This document shows positions 2,301 to 20,502 of a DNA stretch of 64,000 nucleotides, one piece after another (the stretch's first letter is position 1; the number at the start of each line of letters is the position of its first letter). The stretch is from assembly GCF_000952155.1 (NCBI RefSeq), contig NZ_JYON01000017.1, positions 1 to 64,000 of the forward strand. Direction: 5' to 3'. The stretch is from Aliterella atlantica CENA595. Its GTDB lineage: Bacteria; Cyanobacteriota; Cyanobacteriia; Cyanobacteriales; Chroococcidiopsidaceae. The translations under genes and the position numbers were made by a program. The notes beneath the pieces are model-generated. The model saw only the letters and a list, made by a program, of their open reading frames with translations, made no database searches and was not told the DNA's origin.

Positions 2301-3923
2301 TTAAAACGTGAAAGTTGTCCGCATCGTGCCTACATATTCCGTATCATTGCTACTGTTGTGTTCTGGGTTAAAAATTACCAACAGTCCAGGCGTAACTTCA
2401 ATGTTATTAGTAAGACGATAACGGTAGAAAGCCTCTAGATGATAGGAAGTATCGCTATCAACCCGACTTCTATTACCAAAACCGACTTCTCGCACATCAG
2501 AACTAGATACTTTAGGCGATTGACCAAATAGAATACCGCCTAAACTACCTTCTTTGCCCAAGTCGGGTAGTCCTAAACCAGCAGCATAGTACCAAATATC
2601 AGCTTTAGCGCCTCGGTTTCCGGTGACAATTGTACTACTATCGGGATCGGCTTGAGCGATCGCCTGACTGTAACCTCCCCAGCCAAATACAATCAATTTA
2701 GGACTGAGACGGAGGCTTGCTTCTACGCCGTAGTGATTGCCTGTAGTTGGGATATTACCAAAAGGTGAATTGGCAAATATACTGCCCGTACTCTCCATAA
2801 AACTAACATTACCTGTGTTTGGCGTATCGTAAGTGTGGGCATAAGTCAAACCTAAACCAAAAGCATCGCCTAGCTTAAAATTCAACTGTCCAAAAGCTGC
2901 ATAAGCGCCATTAGCAATGCCAAAACCAGCTTCAGGGTTGTTAGCTGTAGGCGCTAGATAAGCCAAGTTAGCACCAATTGAGCCTTGAGGATTAATTGCA
3001 ACTGATACCCCAGCGCCGCCATTTTGATGTCGATAGATGGGGCTAAATCTTCCGTAGCGGGAGATTGCGCCGCGCCCGCTACTTTCAAACGGACTGTAGA
3101 CAGTAAAACCCCTAGCATCTAATTCCACATTAGTAGCATCAACTTGAACGACGATGCGATCGCCGATTGGGAAACGATAAAAAACTTGATCTAGTTCGAG
3201 ATTATTATTATTACTAATATCAAAACCCAAACGACTCATATTACTACCCGTAACATTTGTCCCAAATGGACTAAAGTTTCGAGCTTGCAAACGCATTCGC
3301 AGCAAATCTTCACCAAAGAAACTTGTATTTAAGGCTAGACGAGCGCGGCTTGTCAGGGTAAAAGTATCATTTATCTCACCATTAGAACCTGGAATTCGAC
3401 CTGAAGAAACAGCGCGGTTGTCACCAAATACACCATTAATAGCAAAGATAGCTTCACCACCTAGCTTAGTTGTAGTAGAAAATTGATTTGCTTCTAGGGT
3501 AGCTGTTTGCACTTCTAGGTTATCTACTCTACCTCTGACGCTAGCTAATTCGGTTGCGAACTCTGCTTGCAAACTTTGCAAAGTAGCTAAGTCATCGCGG
3601 GTAACTAAATCTGCTGATGCGGTAGCAATTAATTCATTAACTCGATCTAAGCAAGCATTCAAGCCAGCAGCAAATTCGTACCGAGTTAAAGCCCGATTTC
3701 CGCGATACGTACTATCTGGATAACCTGCAATGCAACCATAGCGTTCGACTAAAGATTGCAAAGCTTGAAAAGCCCAATCTGTCGGTTGCACATCTGATAA
3801 TTGCGACACAGATGTTACTTGTGCCATTGATTCTACATCTTGAGCAATTGCCGTTTGATTTGAAACCCAAGCTAAACAGCACACAGTAGAACTTACTATC
3901 AGCGTTATCTGCAGAAAATTCAT
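2301..3923 (-). CDS. SLH-OprB type outer-membrane porin (first of three)
   Basis: This is an outer-membrane channel of the cyanobacterial 'iron uptake porin' type. A signal peptide (about residues 1-28) is followed by an SLH domain (QLSDVQPTDWAFQALQSL, RYGCIAGYPD, ALTRYEFAAGLNACL) that anchors such porins to peptidoglycan. A short coiled coil (~115-155) leads to a long beta-barrel ending in RTTFTF; the terminal Phe is the usual barrel-assembly signal. The start at 3923 has GAGGAGT upstream. It is the last gene of the importer operon, 117 bases after a permease gene, and probably brings the importer's substrate across the outer membrane. Substrate specificity is inference. Confidence 0.88.
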   Translation of the reverse strand: MNFLQITLIVSSTVCCLAWVSNQTAIAQDVESMAQVTSVSQLSDVQPTDWAFQALQSLVERYGCIAGYPDSTYRGNRALTRYEFAAGLNACLDRVNELIATASADLVTRDDLATLQSLQAEFATELASVRGRVDNLEVQTATLEANQFSTTTKLGGEAIFAINGVFGDNRAVSSGRIPGSNGEINDTFTLTSRARLALNTSFFGEDLLRMRLQARNFSPFGTNVTGSNMSRLGFDISNNNNLELDQVFYRFPIGDRIVVQVDATNVELDARGFTVYSPFESSGRGAISRYGRFSPIYRHQNGGAGVSVAINPQGSIGANLAYLAPTANNPEAGFGIANGAYAAFGQLNFKLGDAFGLGLTYAHTYDTPNTGNVSFMESTGSIFANSPFGNIPTTGNHYGVEASLRLSPKLIVFGWGGYSQAIAQADPDSSTIVTGNRGAKADIWYYAAGLGLPDLGKEGSLGGILFGQSPKVSSSDVREVGFGNRSRVDSDTSYHLEAFYRYRLTNNIEVTPGLLVIFNPEHNSSNDTEYVGTMRTTFTF

Positions 3924-4040
3924 TATTTCACTCCTCACAACCACATCGACAAATCTCTGCAAATTTGCAAACAAAAAGCAGAGCAGTTAATTAAAGTTTC
4001 TCCTTCCTACTGCACAAAAAATCGATTATGCCTTAACAAA

Positions 4041-4862
4041 TCATGTATTATTTTGACGACGCGAGAGGAATTGAATAGCTGTTAATCCTAGCCCAATCAA
4101 CACAAAAGAAAAGACTGTTGTCAGCGTTCCTAACGCATAAAGCGCGGGAGATGTCACGTTAGTTGTCATCCCAAAAATTTCTAATGGTAGAGTGTTTGTC
4201 TCGCCCGAAATTAACGAAGTGCGGGTAAATTCGTCGTAGGAAAGAGTAAAGCCTAGTAAACCTACACCAATTACACTAGCTGCAATTAGGGGAAAAACAA
4301 TTTGCCAAAATGTTGTCACTTCGCTTGCACCTAAATCGCGGGCGGCTTCTTCGTAGGAAGGATTAAAACGTCCAAATATACCCAGCATAATTAGAAAGGC
4401 AAAAGGCAAAGTCCATGTTAAATGTCCCGCAAGTGCAGAAGAATACCACTGATTATCTAAACCTACTAAACCGAAAACTATCCCAATTCCTAATGAAACT
4501 AAAATACTAGGAACAATCAAGCTAGAAATTGTCAGATAAAAAACTAAGTTTGAGCCAACAAATCGCCGTCGAAAAGCTAATCCTGCCATAACGCTAATTA
4601 CTACTGTAAATACAGTCACAAGTAAGCCTAAACTAAGCGATCGCCCAAACGGTTCGATAAAGTTTCCCACACGTTGCACCTCAAATACTGCTTTCAACCA
4701 GTGGAAACTAAACCCACGCATAGGAAAAGTTAATTGTCCTTCAGGACCTTGCAGCGAAAGAATAAATACTGCGAACATTGGACCATATAAAAATAGTACA
4801 AATAGTCCAAAAAAAGTAGCAAGCAAATAAGTAGAAGCTGAGTTTTTTTTAGTTTTTAACAT
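4041..4862 (-). CDS. ABC importer permease, PotC type
   Basis: The protein is 273 residues with about six hydrophobic membrane segments. The cytoplasmic coupling loop EEAARDLGASEVTTFWQIVF...P is the signature of binding-protein-dependent permeases of the spermidine/putrescine (PotBC) group. It would pair with the other permease, whose gene ends 32 bases upstream, and both would be driven by the ATPase encoded first in the operon. PotABCD-like systems import polyamines, but many relatives carry other small nitrogenous solutes. The purine-degradation genes nearby suggest a purine, ureide or similar compound; that is inference. Confidence 0.88.
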   Translation of the reverse strand: MLKTKKNSASTYLLATFFGLFVLFLYGPMFAVFILSLQGPEGQLTFPMRGFSFHWLKAVFEVQRVGNFIEPFGRSLSLGLLVTVFTVVISVMAGLAFRRRFVGSNLVFYLTISSLIVPSILVSLGIGIVFGLVGLDNQWYSSALAGHLTWTLPFAFLIMLGIFGRFNPSYEEAARDLGASEVTTFWQIVFPLIAASVIGVGLLGFTLSYDEFTRTSLISGETNTLPLEIFGMTTNVTSPALYALGTLTTVFSFVLIGLGLTAIQFLSRRQNNT

Positions 4863-4894: not shown

Positions 4895-5752
4895 TTACAA
4901 TTCTTTGCGAACATCAACAATGCGGAGAATGCCAAAAACAATTATCAGAGTAATTATTAACAATACAACTGCATTTGCTGCTGCTAGAGGATACTGTAAA
5001 CTATCAAGTTGGTTTTTAATTAGATAACCTACAGACGAAGATTTACCACCGCTCATAATCCGCATTGTGGCAAATTCTCCCATTACCAGTGTGATGATAA
5101 AAATAGAACCAATAGCAATTCCTGGTGCAGCTAAGGGAAGAATAATTTGCTTTTGAATTTGCAATGGGGAAGCGCCTAAATCTTCTGCTGCGGTGACTAA
5201 AGATCGATCTATTCGCATCATGCTGTTAAAAATGGGAGCTACCATAAACAAGGCGTAAAGATGTACCATTGCTAAAATTACAGAGAAATCAGAAAATAAG
5301 AAAGCTTCAACAGGGCGATCGCTCAAACGCAATCCCATTAATGCTTGATTAATTAATCCTTCTCTACCCAAGAAAGGAATCCAAGAAATCATCCGAATAA
5401 TGTTAGATGTGAGAAAAGGAACGGTACAAATTAAAAACAAAATAGTTTGCCATTGGGTACTTTTAACTTTAAAAGCCAGAAAGTACGCAACAGGATAGCT
5501 AATTAACAGGCAAACTAACCAGACAATTGCTGCAAATTTGAATGTATTGAGATAAGTTGCTAAGTAAACTCTAGAGGTAAATATTCCTAGATAATTGTTG
5601 AGCGTAAATCCAGGACTCATAGCAAAGCCATTGAAATTCCAAAAGCTAACTACTACGATCGCAGCGATCGGTAAAATCAAAAATAGTAGAAATACTAGCG
5701 TTTGGGGAGCTACTAATAAATACGGTTGTAAAGCCTTGGAACTTTTGAGCAT
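4895..5752 (-). CDS. ABC importer permease, PotB type
   Basis: The protein has 285 residues and six predicted membrane helices, beginning YLLVAPQTLVFLLFLILPIA. The coupling loop has AAEDLGASPLQIQKQIILP, the EAA motif that contacts the ATPase. It is the first permease of a heterodimer with the PotC-type protein encoded 32 bases downstream. The gene lies 48 bases after the second porin gene of the same leftward operon. Family assignment is firm; the solute is not known from the sequence. Confidence 0.88.
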   Translation of the reverse strand: MLKSSKALQPYLLVAPQTLVFLLFLILPIAAIVVVSFWNFNGFAMSPGFTLNNYLGIFTSRVYLATYLNTFKFAAIVWLVCLLISYPVAYFLAFKVKSTQWQTILFLICTVPFLTSNIIRMISWIPFLGREGLINQALMGLRLSDRPVEAFLFSDFSVILAMVHLYALFMVAPIFNSMMRIDRSLVTAAEDLGASPLQIQKQIILPLAAPGIAIGSIFIITLVMGEFATMRIMSGGKSSSVGYLIKNQLDSLQYPLAAANAVVLLIITLIIVFGILRIVDVRKEL

Positions 5753-5773: not shown

Positions 5774-5803
5774 TTAAAAATTGAAATTTGTCCGTAAGAC
5801 TCA
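5774..5803 (-). other. In-frame TGA followed by the retained terminal strand of porin 2
   Basis: After the TGA at 5801-5803 the same frame continues VLRTNFNF and ends at TAA (5774-5776). The intact paralogs end YVGTMRTTFTF and YVGNLRAQFTF, so the TGA sits exactly at their Gly codon (GGN to TGA, one base). This shows a recent nonsense change, a sequencing error or read-through. Confidence 0.85.
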
Positions 5804-7447
5804 CACATAAATCGTGTTATTGTCTGCATTATGGTCTGGGTTAGTAATCACAACAATGCCTGGAGTAATACCAATGCGATCGCTAATTTGATACTTGTAG
5901 AAAGCATCAACCATGATAGAAGTATCAGCATCCTCAAACGCTGCAACGTCATTGCTAGTAACTTTTGAAGGCATACCGATAACAATGCCGCCCAAATTAC
6001 CTTTTTTCCCTAAATCTGGAAAAGCCAAAGCAACAGCCCAAGATTGAATATTCGCCTCCAAACCGTCGCCAGGTCCGCCTTGCGCCGTCGCATCAGCAAA
6101 ATAGTACCAACCGCTTAGAGCAAACTTGGGACTAAAACGGTACTCCGCTTCAACTCCGTAGCCATTTGTAGATGAGGGAAAAGTACCAAAAGGAAAAGCT
6201 GCATTTTCGCTGCCAAAAAAGCCACCAGGAGGAGCATTTCCGCTACCGTCATCGTAGGCTCGCAGGTACGTCAAGGCAACAGCAAAGCGATCGCTAGGTC
6301 GAAAGGTAATTTGCCCCAACGCCCCGTAGGGACCGCCAAACAAGCCTGTATCGGGGTTGTTTGCTGTCGGATCTCCAGCTAAGTAACCGCCACCAATATT
6401 GATTGAATCAGTAATGTTGTAGTTAAATCCTGCACCTGACACTCCACTTGGAAAGTAAATTGGGCTACGTAAAGCAAAACCAGTCAGCACTGTATCGTAG
6501 TCGCCATCTAGAGGATGCAGAGTAGGTACGAACAAATCTAAAAATCCAAAAGCTTCTAAAAATGCCGTACCTCTGTCGCCTATCGGAAATCGATACTCCA
6601 ATTGATTAATTGCAAAAGAGTTATTGCTATCAGCCGTGAAAGCCAATCTCGACATGGCTGTACCAGTTGCATCGCCAAGGGCGGGGGTATTACCTGCTTG
6701 CAACCTAGCAATCAGGCGATCTCTACCTGTAAAGCTAGTATCAAAAATTAGCCGCACTCGCTGCGAGGCAAATACATTGTTATCTAAAGGTTCTCTCTGT
6801 GGCTGCACTCCGCCACTTCTAGGCGTACCAAATTGACCAGGCGTAGGGGGGATTACTCCAGCGCCAGAGGTGAGGGCTTTGTCGTCGCCAAATACAGATG
6901 CGATCGCAAATACTGCATGACCGACTAATTTGGTTGTAGTTGAAAACTGATTTGCTTCTAATTGCGCTGTTTGTGCTTCTAGGCTATCAACTCGTCCCCG
7001 CAAAGTTGCTAATTCTTCGGCGAAGTCTGCTTGCAGTTTTTGTAAGGTAGCTAAATCTGCCTTTGTAACTAAGTCAGCAGTTCCGGTCGCAATTAGTTCG
7101 TTGATTCTATCTAAGCAAGCATTTACACCAGCAGCAAACTCATAGCGAGTTAGAGCGCGATCGCCTCTATATGTACCATCTGGATAACCAGCAATGCAAC
7201 CATAGCGTTCGACTAAAGACTGTAACGCCTGAAAAGCCCAATCGGTAGGTTGAACGTCAGACAAATCGGAAACAGAAGTTACTTGCGATCGCAAAGTGGT
7301 TTGCTGGGCATAGCGATTTACTTGCTCTAGCGAAATACTAATATCTTCAGATTGGGTTTGATCTGCACTTACAAGTTGCATACAGATTACTAGAGAACCA
7401 AAAGCAACGCAACTTTGCCCCAGACAATGCCTGAGAAAATTCCACAT
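5801..7447 (-). CDS. SLH-OprB type porin (second of three), missing its last strand
   Basis: It has the same architecture as the other two porins: signal peptide, SLH domain (DLSDVQPTDWAFQALQSL, CIAGYPDGTYRG, LTRYEFAAGVNACL), coiled coil around residues 130-170, then an OprB-like barrel. It lies between the binding-protein and permease genes of the importer operon, so it should be co-expressed with them. The start at 7447 has GGGGAG upstream. The reading frame stops at TIYV, nine residues before the family's usual C-terminus, and lacks the terminal aromatic signal needed for barrel assembly. As written the protein may not insert properly in the outer membrane. Confidence 0.85.
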   Translation of the reverse strand: MWNFLRHCLGQSCVAFGSLVICMQLVSADQTQSEDISISLEQVNRYAQQTTLRSQVTSVSDLSDVQPTDWAFQALQSLVERYGCIAGYPDGTYRGDRALTRYEFAAGVNACLDRINELIATGTADLVTKADLATLQKLQADFAEELATLRGRVDSLEAQTAQLEANQFSTTTKLVGHAVFAIASVFGDDKALTSGAGVIPPTPGQFGTPRSGGVQPQREPLDNNVFASQRVRLIFDTSFTGRDRLIARLQAGNTPALGDATGTAMSRLAFTADSNNSFAINQLEYRFPIGDRGTAFLEAFGFLDLFVPTLHPLDGDYDTVLTGFALRSPIYFPSGVSGAGFNYNITDSINIGGGYLAGDPTANNPDTGLFGGPYGALGQITFRPSDRFAVALTYLRAYDDGSGNAPPGGFFGSENAAFPFGTFPSSTNGYGVEAEYRFSPKFALSGWYYFADATAQGGPGDGLEANIQSWAVALAFPDLGKKGNLGGIVIGMPSKVTSNDVAAFEDADTSIMVDAFYKYQISDRIGITPGIVVITNPDHNADNNTIYV

Positions 7448-7481
7448 TATTTGACTCCCCACACTAATTAATAAATATTCT

Positions 7482-7510
7482 GTGCAGACGTAGCACTGCT
7501 ATGTCTCTAC
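7482..7510. repeat. Degenerate copy of the GTAGAGACGTAGCA palindrome
   Basis: The right arm TGCTATGTCTCTAC and left arm GTGCAGACGTAGCA match the dispersed palindrome with a few changes. The copy overlaps the end of the binding-protein gene: on the minus strand its GTAGAGAC supplies the TAG stop codon at 7507-7509. It may therefore have replaced the original 3' end of that gene. Confidence 0.7.
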
Positions 7511-8793
7511 GCGACGATGAATTCTGTCCATTTGTAAACTAAATACACTTGCTGCGGCATAAATGAATTCCAACAAACTACATTACCCATGCGTTCTGTA
7601 AAAGAACCGCCATCGCGTATTGCTCCTTTTGATTCAATTTTTTTACCAAAGGGATCGATCATATCAATCGCTGCTGGTTTGCCTTCGTACCAAAAATCCC
7701 ATTCCTCCGGCTTCATAAACTTACGCGCATTTACTGGTGCAGCGCTGTAATAACCTTGTCTGCTCAAAAATCCCCCAACCCAGCCATCTAACATCCAGTT
7801 GAGATATTCGTAAGCTGCATCTAGCTTGATTCCAGAGAGATTTTTTGATAGCCCTAAACCTCCGCCCCAGCCGCGATAACCTTCCTTTAAAGGCGCGTAA
7901 ACGCAGGGAATACCCCTCGCCTTGACAGCCGTCACCGCAGGCGACCACATAGATTGCAGCACCACTTCCCCAGATGACATTAAATTGACTGACTCGTCAA
8001 AGGTTTTCCAAAAAGCCCGAAATTGTCCGGCTTGCTTTTGCTCGATTAAGATGTTTGTCACCTTATCAAGTTCTGCTTTGGTCATATTGCCTTTATCGCC
8101 AAACTCTAGCAGCCCCATTGACTCCATAATCATTGCTGCATCCATGATGCCAATAGAGGGAATATCTAGTAGCGACGTTTTTCCCTTAAATTTGGGGTCG
8201 AATAAGTCTGCCCAAGACTCAATTTTGCTATCGACTAAATCGGGACGATAGCCCAAGGTATCGGCGTTGTATTGGAAGGGAATCATTGTCGCCCAGTCGG
8301 TAGGTTCGGGGGCAAATTCAGTTGAGTCTTTGCCTTTGAGAAATACTACTTTGCGAGGTGCAGTCCCTTGAGAAGTATTTACTCTCGCGCCTGGAAACAA
8401 TTCTCCTGTAGTAAAAATGGGCGTTATGGTGTCAAATTCTCTAATCCGTTTGACATTAATTGCTTGTAAGTTGCCAGAAGGCACAACCAAAGGCAGGCTA
8501 AAGTATTCGCCATCAAAGATGTCATACTGTTTGGGCTGAGTAATGGCAATCTGGATATTTTCTGCCGTACTCAAAGCCCGCATATTTATTTTGAAGCCCA
8601 AATCCTTTTCTGCTTGGACGCGGATATCGTTAATCTGCGCTGCACCCGAACCAATCAAGCGCAAAGTTACATCTTGGATTTTATTAGTAATAATTGTTGG
8701 ACCTGTTTTTGGGCTGCAACTAGAGGCAGCTAACATTGCTCCCCCAGCAGCTAGTCCATTGGTAATTAGTTTGCGACGACTAATATTGCTCAT
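7507..8793 (-). CDS. ABC importer periplasmic solute-binding protein, PotD-like
   Basis: This is an extracellular solute-binding protein of the PotD/type-2 class, 428 residues. The N-terminus SRRKLITNGLAAGGAML has a twin-arginine-like export signal, followed by LAASSC, a possible lipoprotein cleavage site. The body has recognisable binding-protein blocks such as WADLFDPKFKGKTSLLD, VVLQSMWSPAV and AYEYLNWMLDG. The gene is eight bases after the ATPase gene, so the two are coupled. The C-terminus ends at a TAG formed by a palindromic repeat and may be slightly shortened or altered. The ligand is unknown; a ureide or other nitrogen compound is suggested by the neighbours only. Confidence 0.87.
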   Translation of the reverse strand: MSNISRRKLITNGLAAGGAMLAASSCSPKTGPTIITNKIQDVTLRLIGSGAAQINDIRVQAEKDLGFKINMRALSTAENIQIAITQPKQYDIFDGEYFSLPLVVPSGNLQAINVKRIREFDTITPIFTTGELFPGARVNTSQGTAPRKVVFLKGKDSTEFAPEPTDWATMIPFQYNADTLGYRPDLVDSKIESWADLFDPKFKGKTSLLDIPSIGIMDAAMIMESMGLLEFGDKGNMTKAELDKVTNILIEQKQAGQFRAFWKTFDESVNLMSSGEVVLQSMWSPAVTAVKARGIPCVYAPLKEGYRGWGGGLGLSKNLSGIKLDAAYEYLNWMLDGWVGGFLSRQGYYSAAPVNARKFMKPEEWDFWYEGKPAAIDMIDPFGKKIESKGAIRDGGSFTERMGNVVCWNSFMPQQVYLVYKWTEFIVA

Positions 8794-8801
8794 GGCTTTT
8801 A

Positions 8802-9980
8802 TTAATAAGCAAGAAAAATACAGTTATCTTTCGACCAACTAAGTAGAGCTAATTGCCCTTCTTGTAGAGTGTTTTGTCGCCAGTCTTCGGTGCGAACTTT
8901 ATATAGAATCTCTTGCCCTGTGGCTTCTACCATCAATGAAACGCGGGTTACATAACCTGTCATTTCTACCGCAGTAATTCGCGCTGAGATTTGGTTGGCG
9001 CCTAGAGATGATTTAGCTGGTATTTTGGCTGAATATGGCTCTAATGCCATCAAGTCAGGTCTAATCGAACACGCTGCTTCTGTACCAATCGGTACGGCGT
9101 GACCTCGACAAAATATAGTGCCAATTCCTGCTACTTCTAGCCCAATTAAATCTAAGCTATTGTCTGTAACGCAGTTGACTACTTTGCCTGTAAATATGTT
9201 GTTGTCGCCCATGAACTTAGCGACAAATTGCGAGGCTGGAGTATCAAAAAGTTCTTCTGGTGTGGCAACTTGATCGATGCGTCCGTGTGTCATGACAACT
9301 ATTTGGTCGGATAAAGAAAATGCTTCTTCGACGTGGTGAGTTACTTGGATGAATGTCATGCCAAATTGTTTTTGGATTTTGCGTAACTCTGTCCGCATCC
9401 TGACTCTTAAGTTTTCGTCTAAGGCACTTAGTGGTTCATCTAGCATCAAGACTTGCGGACGAATGGCTAATGCTCTAGCTAAAGCGATGCGCTGTTGCTG
9501 TCCGCCACTAAGCATATTCGGTTTACGATCGCCTAAATGACTCAATCCCACCATTTCTAACATTTCGCCGACGCGCCGTTGGCGATCGCTTTCGGGCAAT
9601 TTCCGCATCTTTAATCCAAACTCTACGTTCTCCCAAATCGTTTTATGAGGAAATAAGGCGTAGCTTTGAAACATCATCGCTGTGTTGCGTTTGGCTGGCG
9701 GAATGTCGTTGACGCGGCGATCGCCTATTAATACATCTCCGCTAGTTGCATCTTCATGTCCGGCTATCATCCGCAGTGCAGTTGTTTTACCGCAGCCGCT
9801 AGGACCTAATAGACAGCAATAAGTACCTGCGGGAATGTCTAGTGTAAGGTTTTCTACTGCTGTAAAAGTACCGTATTTTTTGGTTACAGCCCTGAGTGCA
9901 ACACCTTGGGCTGCTTCTGCTAGCGCTTGTTGAATGGTTGAACTAGCTGTAGATACTTTGTTTTTAGTTCCTATTGACAT
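8802..9980 (-). CDS. ABC importer ATPase, PotA type
   Basis: The 392-residue ATP-binding subunit energises the importer on the cytoplasmic face of the membrane. Walker A is GPSGCGKTT (~residue 58), the Q-loop segment MMFQSYALFPH, the signature LSGGQQQRIALARAL, Walker B VLMLDEPLSALD, and the switch His is in QVTHHVEEAF. A TOBE-type regulatory domain fills residues ~290-390. It is the first gene of a leftward operon of six (ATPase, binding protein, porin, permease, permease, porin). Its promoter lies in the 290-base region shared with the divergent GntR gene and contains that regulator's probable operator. Confidence 0.92.
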   Translation of the reverse strand: MSIGTKNKVSTASSTIQQALAEAAQGVALRAVTKKYGTFTAVENLTLDIPAGTYCCLLGPSGCGKTTALRMIAGHEDATSGDVLIGDRRVNDIPPAKRNTAMMFQSYALFPHKTIWENVEFGLKMRKLPESDRQRRVGEMLEMVGLSHLGDRKPNMLSGGQQQRIALARALAIRPQVLMLDEPLSALDENLRVRMRTELRKIQKQFGMTFIQVTHHVEEAFSLSDQIVVMTHGRIDQVATPEELFDTPASQFVAKFMGDNNIFTGKVVNCVTDNSLDLIGLEVAGIGTIFCRGHAVPIGTEAACSIRPDLMALEPYSAKIPAKSSLGANQISARITAVEMTGYVTRVSLMVEATGQEILYKVRTEDWRQNTLQEGQLALLSWSKDNCIFLAY

Positions 9981-18771: not shown

Positions 18772-20502
18772 ATGAGTTCAATAAAATTTAACTGTTTATC
18801 AGGACTAATAATAGTCTGGAGTTTTGTCGTAGCTTCTGCTGCAAGTGTTGAAGCTGAAGAGGCGATGGGCGAGAAACAAGTAGCACAAGCAACTATCGTT
18901 TCTAATCAAGAGCAAACAATGGCGCAAGTTACCTCAGTTTCCCAGCTATCTGACGTACAGCCGACAGATTGGGCATTTCAGGCTTTACAGTCTTTAGTCG
19001 AACGTTACGGTTGCATTGCTGGTTATCCTGATGGCACATATCGCGGCAATCGAGCGCTAACTAGATATGAATTTGCCGCTGGATTGAATGCTTGTTTGGA
19101 CAGGGTTAACGAGCTAATTACTACGGCGACAGCAGATTCAGTTAGTAAAGAAGATTTAGCTACTTTGCAGCGATTGCAAGCAGAATTTAGTACCGAACTT
19201 GCTAGCTTGCGCGGGCGGTTAGATGCTTTAGAAATGCAAGCTAGCGAACTAGAAGCCAATCAATTTTCGACCACGACAAAACTAACTGGCAACGTATTTG
19301 TCAACCTTACAGGTGCTTTTGCTGATGGCACAGTTTTGGCAGAAGGGGAAACTGCCTTTAGAACTCAGCCGCGCACAGCTACACCTTTATTGCGGCAAAT
19401 TGATAGCGATCCCAATATTACTCTGAGCAATTATATATTTCTCAACTTCAATACTTCATTTACAGGTAGAGATAGTTTAGTGACGCAACTGGTATCGGGA
19501 AACGCTAGATCTCCAGCTAATGAGTTTGTATCGGCAGGTTTGTTTAATACTTTCGGGACTCCTTATACTGACCAGACAGGTACGCCTACAAGTGGATTTA
19601 ACAGCGTCTACGTTCGAGAACTTTTCTATAGCTTTCCTGTAGGAGATAATATTCAAGTAGCTGTTGGTCCGCGAGTTAATTGGTTTCGCTACTTTGATAA
19701 CAACCGTTTTACCAACTTTTTGCGGGGTGCAAGCAGTTTTAACTCGATTGGTAGCACGTTGGCAAATGCCATAGACAGAGGTTCGGGAGCGGCGATTGTC
19801 TGGAATTTGAGCAAACAACTTAAGTTTAGTGCGGCGTATTTGGGCGAAAACACGGAATTTTTATCTAGTCCTTTGTTTAATTCCTCCAGCAACCCCAGTC
19901 AGGGTTTATTTAATCCGACTAATACTATCTCCGCCGAATTAGGTTTTGCACCTAGCGATCGCTTGAATTTACGATTTCTCTACACTCGTTCTAATATTAG
20001 AGCGATCGCCGGACAAGTTGGCGGGGCGATCGGCGAACCTATATATGGCTTTGCTGATGATGGTTTTGATGGTCCGATTGACAATGCTTCTGCCGATACT
20101 TTTGTGTTTAATTTTGATTGGCTGATTGCATCGGGATTAGGCATATTTGGTCGATATTCCTACGGTAGTACAAATATAGAACCTTTAACTGCGGGTTTGC
20201 CTGATGGCGAAGTCAATGCTCAATCAGTGCAATTAGGAGTAGCTTTGCCTGACTTTGCTAAAGAGGGGGCGCTATTTACGCTATCTTATGTCATTCCTTT
20301 TGCTGTTTTAGATGGTCGCAATTTTTTAGCTTCTGGTGGCGGTGATGGTGGGGTGCAGTACGAGTTTGAAGCTACTTATTACTATCCCCTCACTGACAAT
20401 ATTGCCCTAGTGCCAGCTTTTTATTTGATTGGCAATCCTAACAACTTCAGCGATAATCCGACGATTTATGTAGGTAATTTACGCGCTCAATTTACCTTCT
20501 AA
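18772..20502 (+). CDS. SLH-OprB type outer-membrane porin (third of three)
   Basis: The 576-residue protein has a signal peptide ending near EAEEA, the SLH domain (QLSDVQPTDWAFQALQSL, CIAGYPDGTYRG, LTRYEFAAGLNACL), a coiled coil (~125-160) and a beta-barrel ending LRAQFTF with the terminal Phe intact. The SLH and coiled-coil parts are nearly the same as in the two porins of the importer operon, but the barrel is clearly different. It follows uraD by 21 bases in the urate operon, which suggests an outer-membrane route for urate, allantoin or a related compound. It meets the racemase gene tail to tail. Confidence 0.9.
   Translation: MSSIKFNCLSGLIIVWSFVVASAASVEAEEAMGEKQVAQATIVSNQEQTMAQVTSVSQLSDVQPTDWAFQALQSLVERYGCIAGYPDGTYRGNRALTRYEFAAGLNACLDRVNELITTATADSVSKEDLATLQRLQAEFSTELASLRGRLDALEMQASELEANQFSTTTKLTGNVFVNLTGAFADGTVLAEGETAFRTQPRTATPLLRQIDSDPNITLSNYIFLNFNTSFTGRDSLVTQLVSGNARSPANEFVSAGLFNTFGTPYTDQTGTPTSGFNSVYVRELFYSFPVGDNIQVAVGPRVNWFRYFDNNRFTNFLRGASSFNSIGSTLANAIDRGSGAAIVWNLSKQLKFSAAYLGENTEFLSSPLFNSSSNPSQGLFNPTNTISAELGFAPSDRLNLRFLYTRSNIRAIAGQVGGAIGEPIYGFADDGFDGPIDNASADTFVFNFDWLIASGLGIFGRYSYGSTNIEPLTAGLPDGEVNAQSVQLGVALPDFAKEGALFTLSYVIPFAVLDGRNFLASGGGDGGVQYEFEATYYYPLTDNIALVPAFYLIGNPNNFSDNPTIYVGNLRAQFTF

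Follow-up and report, generated by a model that had tools for sequence, protein, structure and literature searches.

Cyanobacterial iron uptake porins of the SLH/OprB type are collected in the NCBIfam family NF033921 (por_somb). Loss of a porin through a premature stop codon has been recorded in many Gram-negative isolates, where a single nonsense mutation lies in one of several redundant porins. UGA is the leakiest of the stop codons (PMC5289835); the Hirsh UGA suppressor is an E. coli tRNA-Trp with a G24A change (PMC11805395). Here, we report that porin 2, a member of NF033921 in the window (the whole 64,000-nucleotide stretch of Aliterella atlantica CENA595 DNA analysed), has its stop codon nine residues early. 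We consider it likely that this one of about eleven SLH/OprB porins has recently acquired a nonsense mutation through the change of one base, GGA to TGA. Porin 2 has the domain order of NF033921, SLH followed by OprB, and differs from the family in lacking the FxF terminus along with the nine profile positions at the end. It resembles the Gram-negative isolates in that one nonsense mutation appears to have hit one porin out of a redundant set; in contrast to them, its stop is at the very last strand and its host is a cyanobacterium.

Porin 2 matches the NF033921 profile with 572.1 bits, above the curated cut-off of 100, and covers profile positions 1-476 of 485, i.e., it is precisely the tail that is missing. 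Both PF00395 (SLH, N-terminal) and PF04966 (OprB barrel) are above cut-off. The conceptual product does not have a complete barrel with an FxF terminus, the TGA being located at a conserved Gly, and we consider porin 2 a truncated, probably non-functional copy of an NF033921 member. A longer program-called ORF for the same gene begins with GTG at 7462. Porin 2 sits in a minus-strand operon of a PotABCD-type ABC transporter together with a second, intact porin (Table 1), and the reading frames of the transporter genes are still open. The studied genome (G000) is 5.27 Mb in 60 contigs; the ten other SLH/OprB porins in it all end in FxF, one of them being in the porin 2 operon, and the plasmid records searched gave distant porins only.

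Table 1. Coordinates of porin 2, its in-frame stop and tail, and the neighbouring genes in the window.
Feature	Position	Strand	Remark
Porin 1, intact paralog	2301..3923 (ORF 2301-3974)	(-)	End YVGTMRTTFTF
ABC transporter permease (PotC-like)	4041..4862	(-)	
ABC transporter permease (PotB-like)	4895..5752	(-)	Next gene of the porin 2 operon
Cut-off conserved tail VLRTNFNF + TAA	5774..5800	(-)	Rest of the 16th barrel strand, FxF terminal signal (strand predicted by the model)
In-frame TGA	5801..5803	(-)	Takes the place of the codon for a conserved Gly; both sister orthologs have GGA
Porin 2 ORF up to the TGA	5804..7447	(-)	ATG 7445-7447; SLH domain + OprB barrel, NF033921
Extracellular solute-binding protein (PotD/YdcS-like)	7507..8793	(-)	
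ABC transporter ATPase (PotA-like)	8802..9980	(-)	

Read on the minus strand, the porin 2 frame is TAT GTG TGA GTC TTA CGG ACA AAT TTC AAT TTT TAA, in which VLRTNFNF occupies 5777-5800 and the closing TAA 5774-5776. The earlier note had described this TGA with the in-frame tail and TAA behind it, and its coordinates are correct on a minus-strand reading; the paralog ends that it aligned with the tail are real, YVGTMRTTFTF belonging to porin 1 and YVGNLRAQFTF to a porin at 18790-20472 on the plus strand. The closest orthologs of porin 2, in G001 and G002 (Chlorogloea sp. CCALA 695), come from the same genus, are 84-85% identical and lie in the same gene cluster, with the same gene order in G001 and, in G002, the same order except that no porin 1 ortholog was found within the 12 kb of contig read. 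Both orthologs end in ...YVG-VLRTNFNF, with GGA at the TGA-equivalent codon and an identical tail, as the proposed GGA-to-TGA change would have it; the C-termini are thus related, not unrelated. Because its eight residues are identical to the ortholog ends of both sister species, the tail after the TGA is not there by chance. Of the 33 other porin loci in which the tail was read, every one has Gly at this position (32 by motif and one more), and no internal stop was found in about 100 other full-length relatives from 196 genomes of the order, porin 2 alone having one. These comparisons give good support to a GGA-to-TGA change that arose either on this lineage or within this assembly.

For the intact ortholog in G001, the structural model (pLDDT 75 on average and ~90 across the final strands) has a barrel of 16 strands, the last of which comprises residues 537-547 of 548, and the residue equivalent to the stop is Gly 540. 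According to this model, strand 16, which closes the barrel, is made up mostly of the nine lost residues, and these include the terminal FxF signal. The removal of the terminal FxF strand had been claimed before, rightly so. The top PDB match was OprB of Pseudomonas putida (4gey), and a PDB sequence search with the porin alignment gave matches to the SLH region only. The truncated porin 2 presumably cannot close the 16-strand barrel; normal recognition by the Omp85/BAM machinery would likewise fail, and most of the product would be degraded, which would make the gene a null or near-null allele. Such a loss would be tolerable because ten other porins are intact, one of them in the same operon.

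For the codons upstream of the stop, the dN/dS of porin 2 against the sisters is 0.079-0.093, compared with 0.080 for porin 1; the value between G001 and G002 is 0.114, higher than those between G000 and either sister. Judged by these ratios, porin 2 outside the tail is under normal purifying selection, on par with its neighbour. Compared with G001, the 8 codons of the tail differ at 5 nucleotides, all synonymous, with 0 amino-acid differences (P ~0.002 if random). The dS to the sister is ~1.16, or roughly 0.58 per branch when halved under a midpoint assumption, and in simulation a neutral tail keeps its sequence with a probability of ~0.04 after 0.2 substitutions per site. The tail is unchanged in amino acids despite ~0.58 per branch; therefore, it was translated for most of the history of the lineage. 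On these numbers, the stop is young, or an error, or the tail is still translated.

Setting 1.25 Mb of G000 against 1.2 Mb of G001 gave 192 ortholog pairs with 62,768 aligned residues, and no gene in these pairs but porin 2 has a stop in frame with a conserved tail behind it; the other flagged stops fall within the first 22 residues, probably reflecting over-extended starts, or in unconserved ends. A reference-free scan for stop-split genes among 991 ORFs gave one TGA case and one TAG case, and because the TGA split is at an Arg codon and the other split is a TAG, there is no TGA-specific pattern. Reassignment of UGA (genetic code 4) was rejected, TGA being the terminator in 28 of 182 orthologs and in 16.6% of 850 ORFs, and RF2 being present (493 bits). 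Genome-wide UGA recoding was rejected on terminator use, extension lengths and the ortholog survey in the sequence compared.

The earlier note had left three alternatives standing, a recent loss, a sequencing error, and programmed or leaky read-through, of which the recent loss fits best and the programmed read-through is not supported, the stop being unique to this genome and no recoding machinery having been found. Most likely, the explanation is the ordinary one and not a special decoding mechanism. A recent mutation predicts coding conservation downstream of the stop, as is seen in porin 2; however, the conservation of the tail is equally expected if the tail is still translated, and the absence of any further lesion in porin 2 also speaks against recent mutation. 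An error of the sequencing or assembly consensus, in which the real base gives GGA and porin 2 is intact, is unlikely in our view. It would concern a single base within an otherwise normally constrained gene, whose tail and body look fully functional, and on the plus strand it would read as C-to-A, a type of change that oxidative library damage also produces; nevertheless, the assembly looks clean, with no mid-gene stop and no frameshift split across the surveyed ortholog pairs, and the site is located 5.8 kb inside a 112 kb contig. We give hardly any credence to programmed recoding, by selenocysteine or a dedicated signal, as a means of regulating porin assembly: the sole point in its favor is where the stop lies, at the last strand, since reading through it there would serve as a switch for assembly, and the stop is conserved in no relative, with GGA in both orthologs and no stop in the ~100 others. 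As for selenocysteine itself, no tRNA-Sec match was over the cut-off in G000, the best sub-threshold match being an ordinary tRNA-Ser(UGA), and a scan of 1.25 Mb of G000 found no suppressor tRNA.

Leaky UGA read-through by tRNA-Trp would yield some full-length porin with Trp at the Gly position, making the allele hypomorphic and keeping its tail under selection, and we regard it as quite unlikely. The intact porin 2 tail is consistent with it. In the Hirsh suppressor, U11 is the pairing partner of A24. The base at +4 after the porin 2 TGA is not U (PMC5289835), and the G000 tRNA-Trp has U11-A24, the pair created by the G24A change (PMC11805395), together with two further features: U27.G43 forms a weak pair where the anticodon stem begins at the top, and the D-loop falls one base short of its length in all 23 relatives compared. 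Against this, A24 is shared by all cyanobacterial tRNA-Trp examined, and 5 pairs remain in the anticodon stem (the U27.G43 pair is common to three of the 23 relatives); TGA is not avoided as a terminator (16.6% in G000 versus 13.3% in G001), extensions past TGA are no longer and no more coding-like than those past TAA or TAG, the SPF and GGQ motifs of RF2 are intact, and replacing this conserved Gly by Trp may be harmful in its own right. A tRNA-Trp with a four-base-pair anticodon stem, as in PMC13092985, was considered and rejected, five pairs being present with U.G at the top. Because no genome-wide effect is seen, strong suppression is disfavoured. The G000 tRNA-Trp thus shares A24 (in U11-A24) and the CCA anticodon with the Hirsh suppressor, but its A24 is the general state in the compared cyanobacterial genomes and not a strain mutation, and no genome-wide signal of read-through accompanies it. 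It is very unlikely, in our estimate, that the TGA is real and usefully read through with the help of this tRNA-Trp, so that natural leaky decoding controls how much of one porin is made and protects such alleles against selection in this lineage; in the literature on read-through in cyanobacteria, no precedent was found for this gene. If read-through were shown, porin 2 would offer a natural way to ask whether UGA is made generally leaky across the phylum by the cyanobacterial tRNA-Trp with its Hirsh-type D-stem pair. As the lone nonsense allele of a redundant porin, the recent mutation that we favor carries little weight beyond annotation, in which porin 2 ought to be marked as truncated.

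Several other loci of G000 came up in these scans. The only tRNA-Trp(CCA) found is at L185 (G000:C38:166066-166138) and has the D-loop AGTGGTA, compared with AGTTGGTA in 23 relatives. An array of 20 tRNA genes lies within ~2.2 kb at L065:11323-13543 (G000:C46); it carries sense anticodons only, none of them stop-reading, and several of these anticodons are also present elsewhere in the genome. A gene for a DpdJ-like helicase, which we take to belong to a system for DNA 7-deazapurine modification, is interrupted in frame by a TGA that lies between the helicase domains (L174:1908-1910, G000:C32:181908-181910); judged by a 73% identical homolog in another genome (G120), this TGA replaces Arg, not Gly or Trp. 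A gene for an AAA-type ATPase is apparently split by TAG at L065:14998-16041 plus the next 65 codons (G000:C46), and its continuation has recognisable ATPase motifs.
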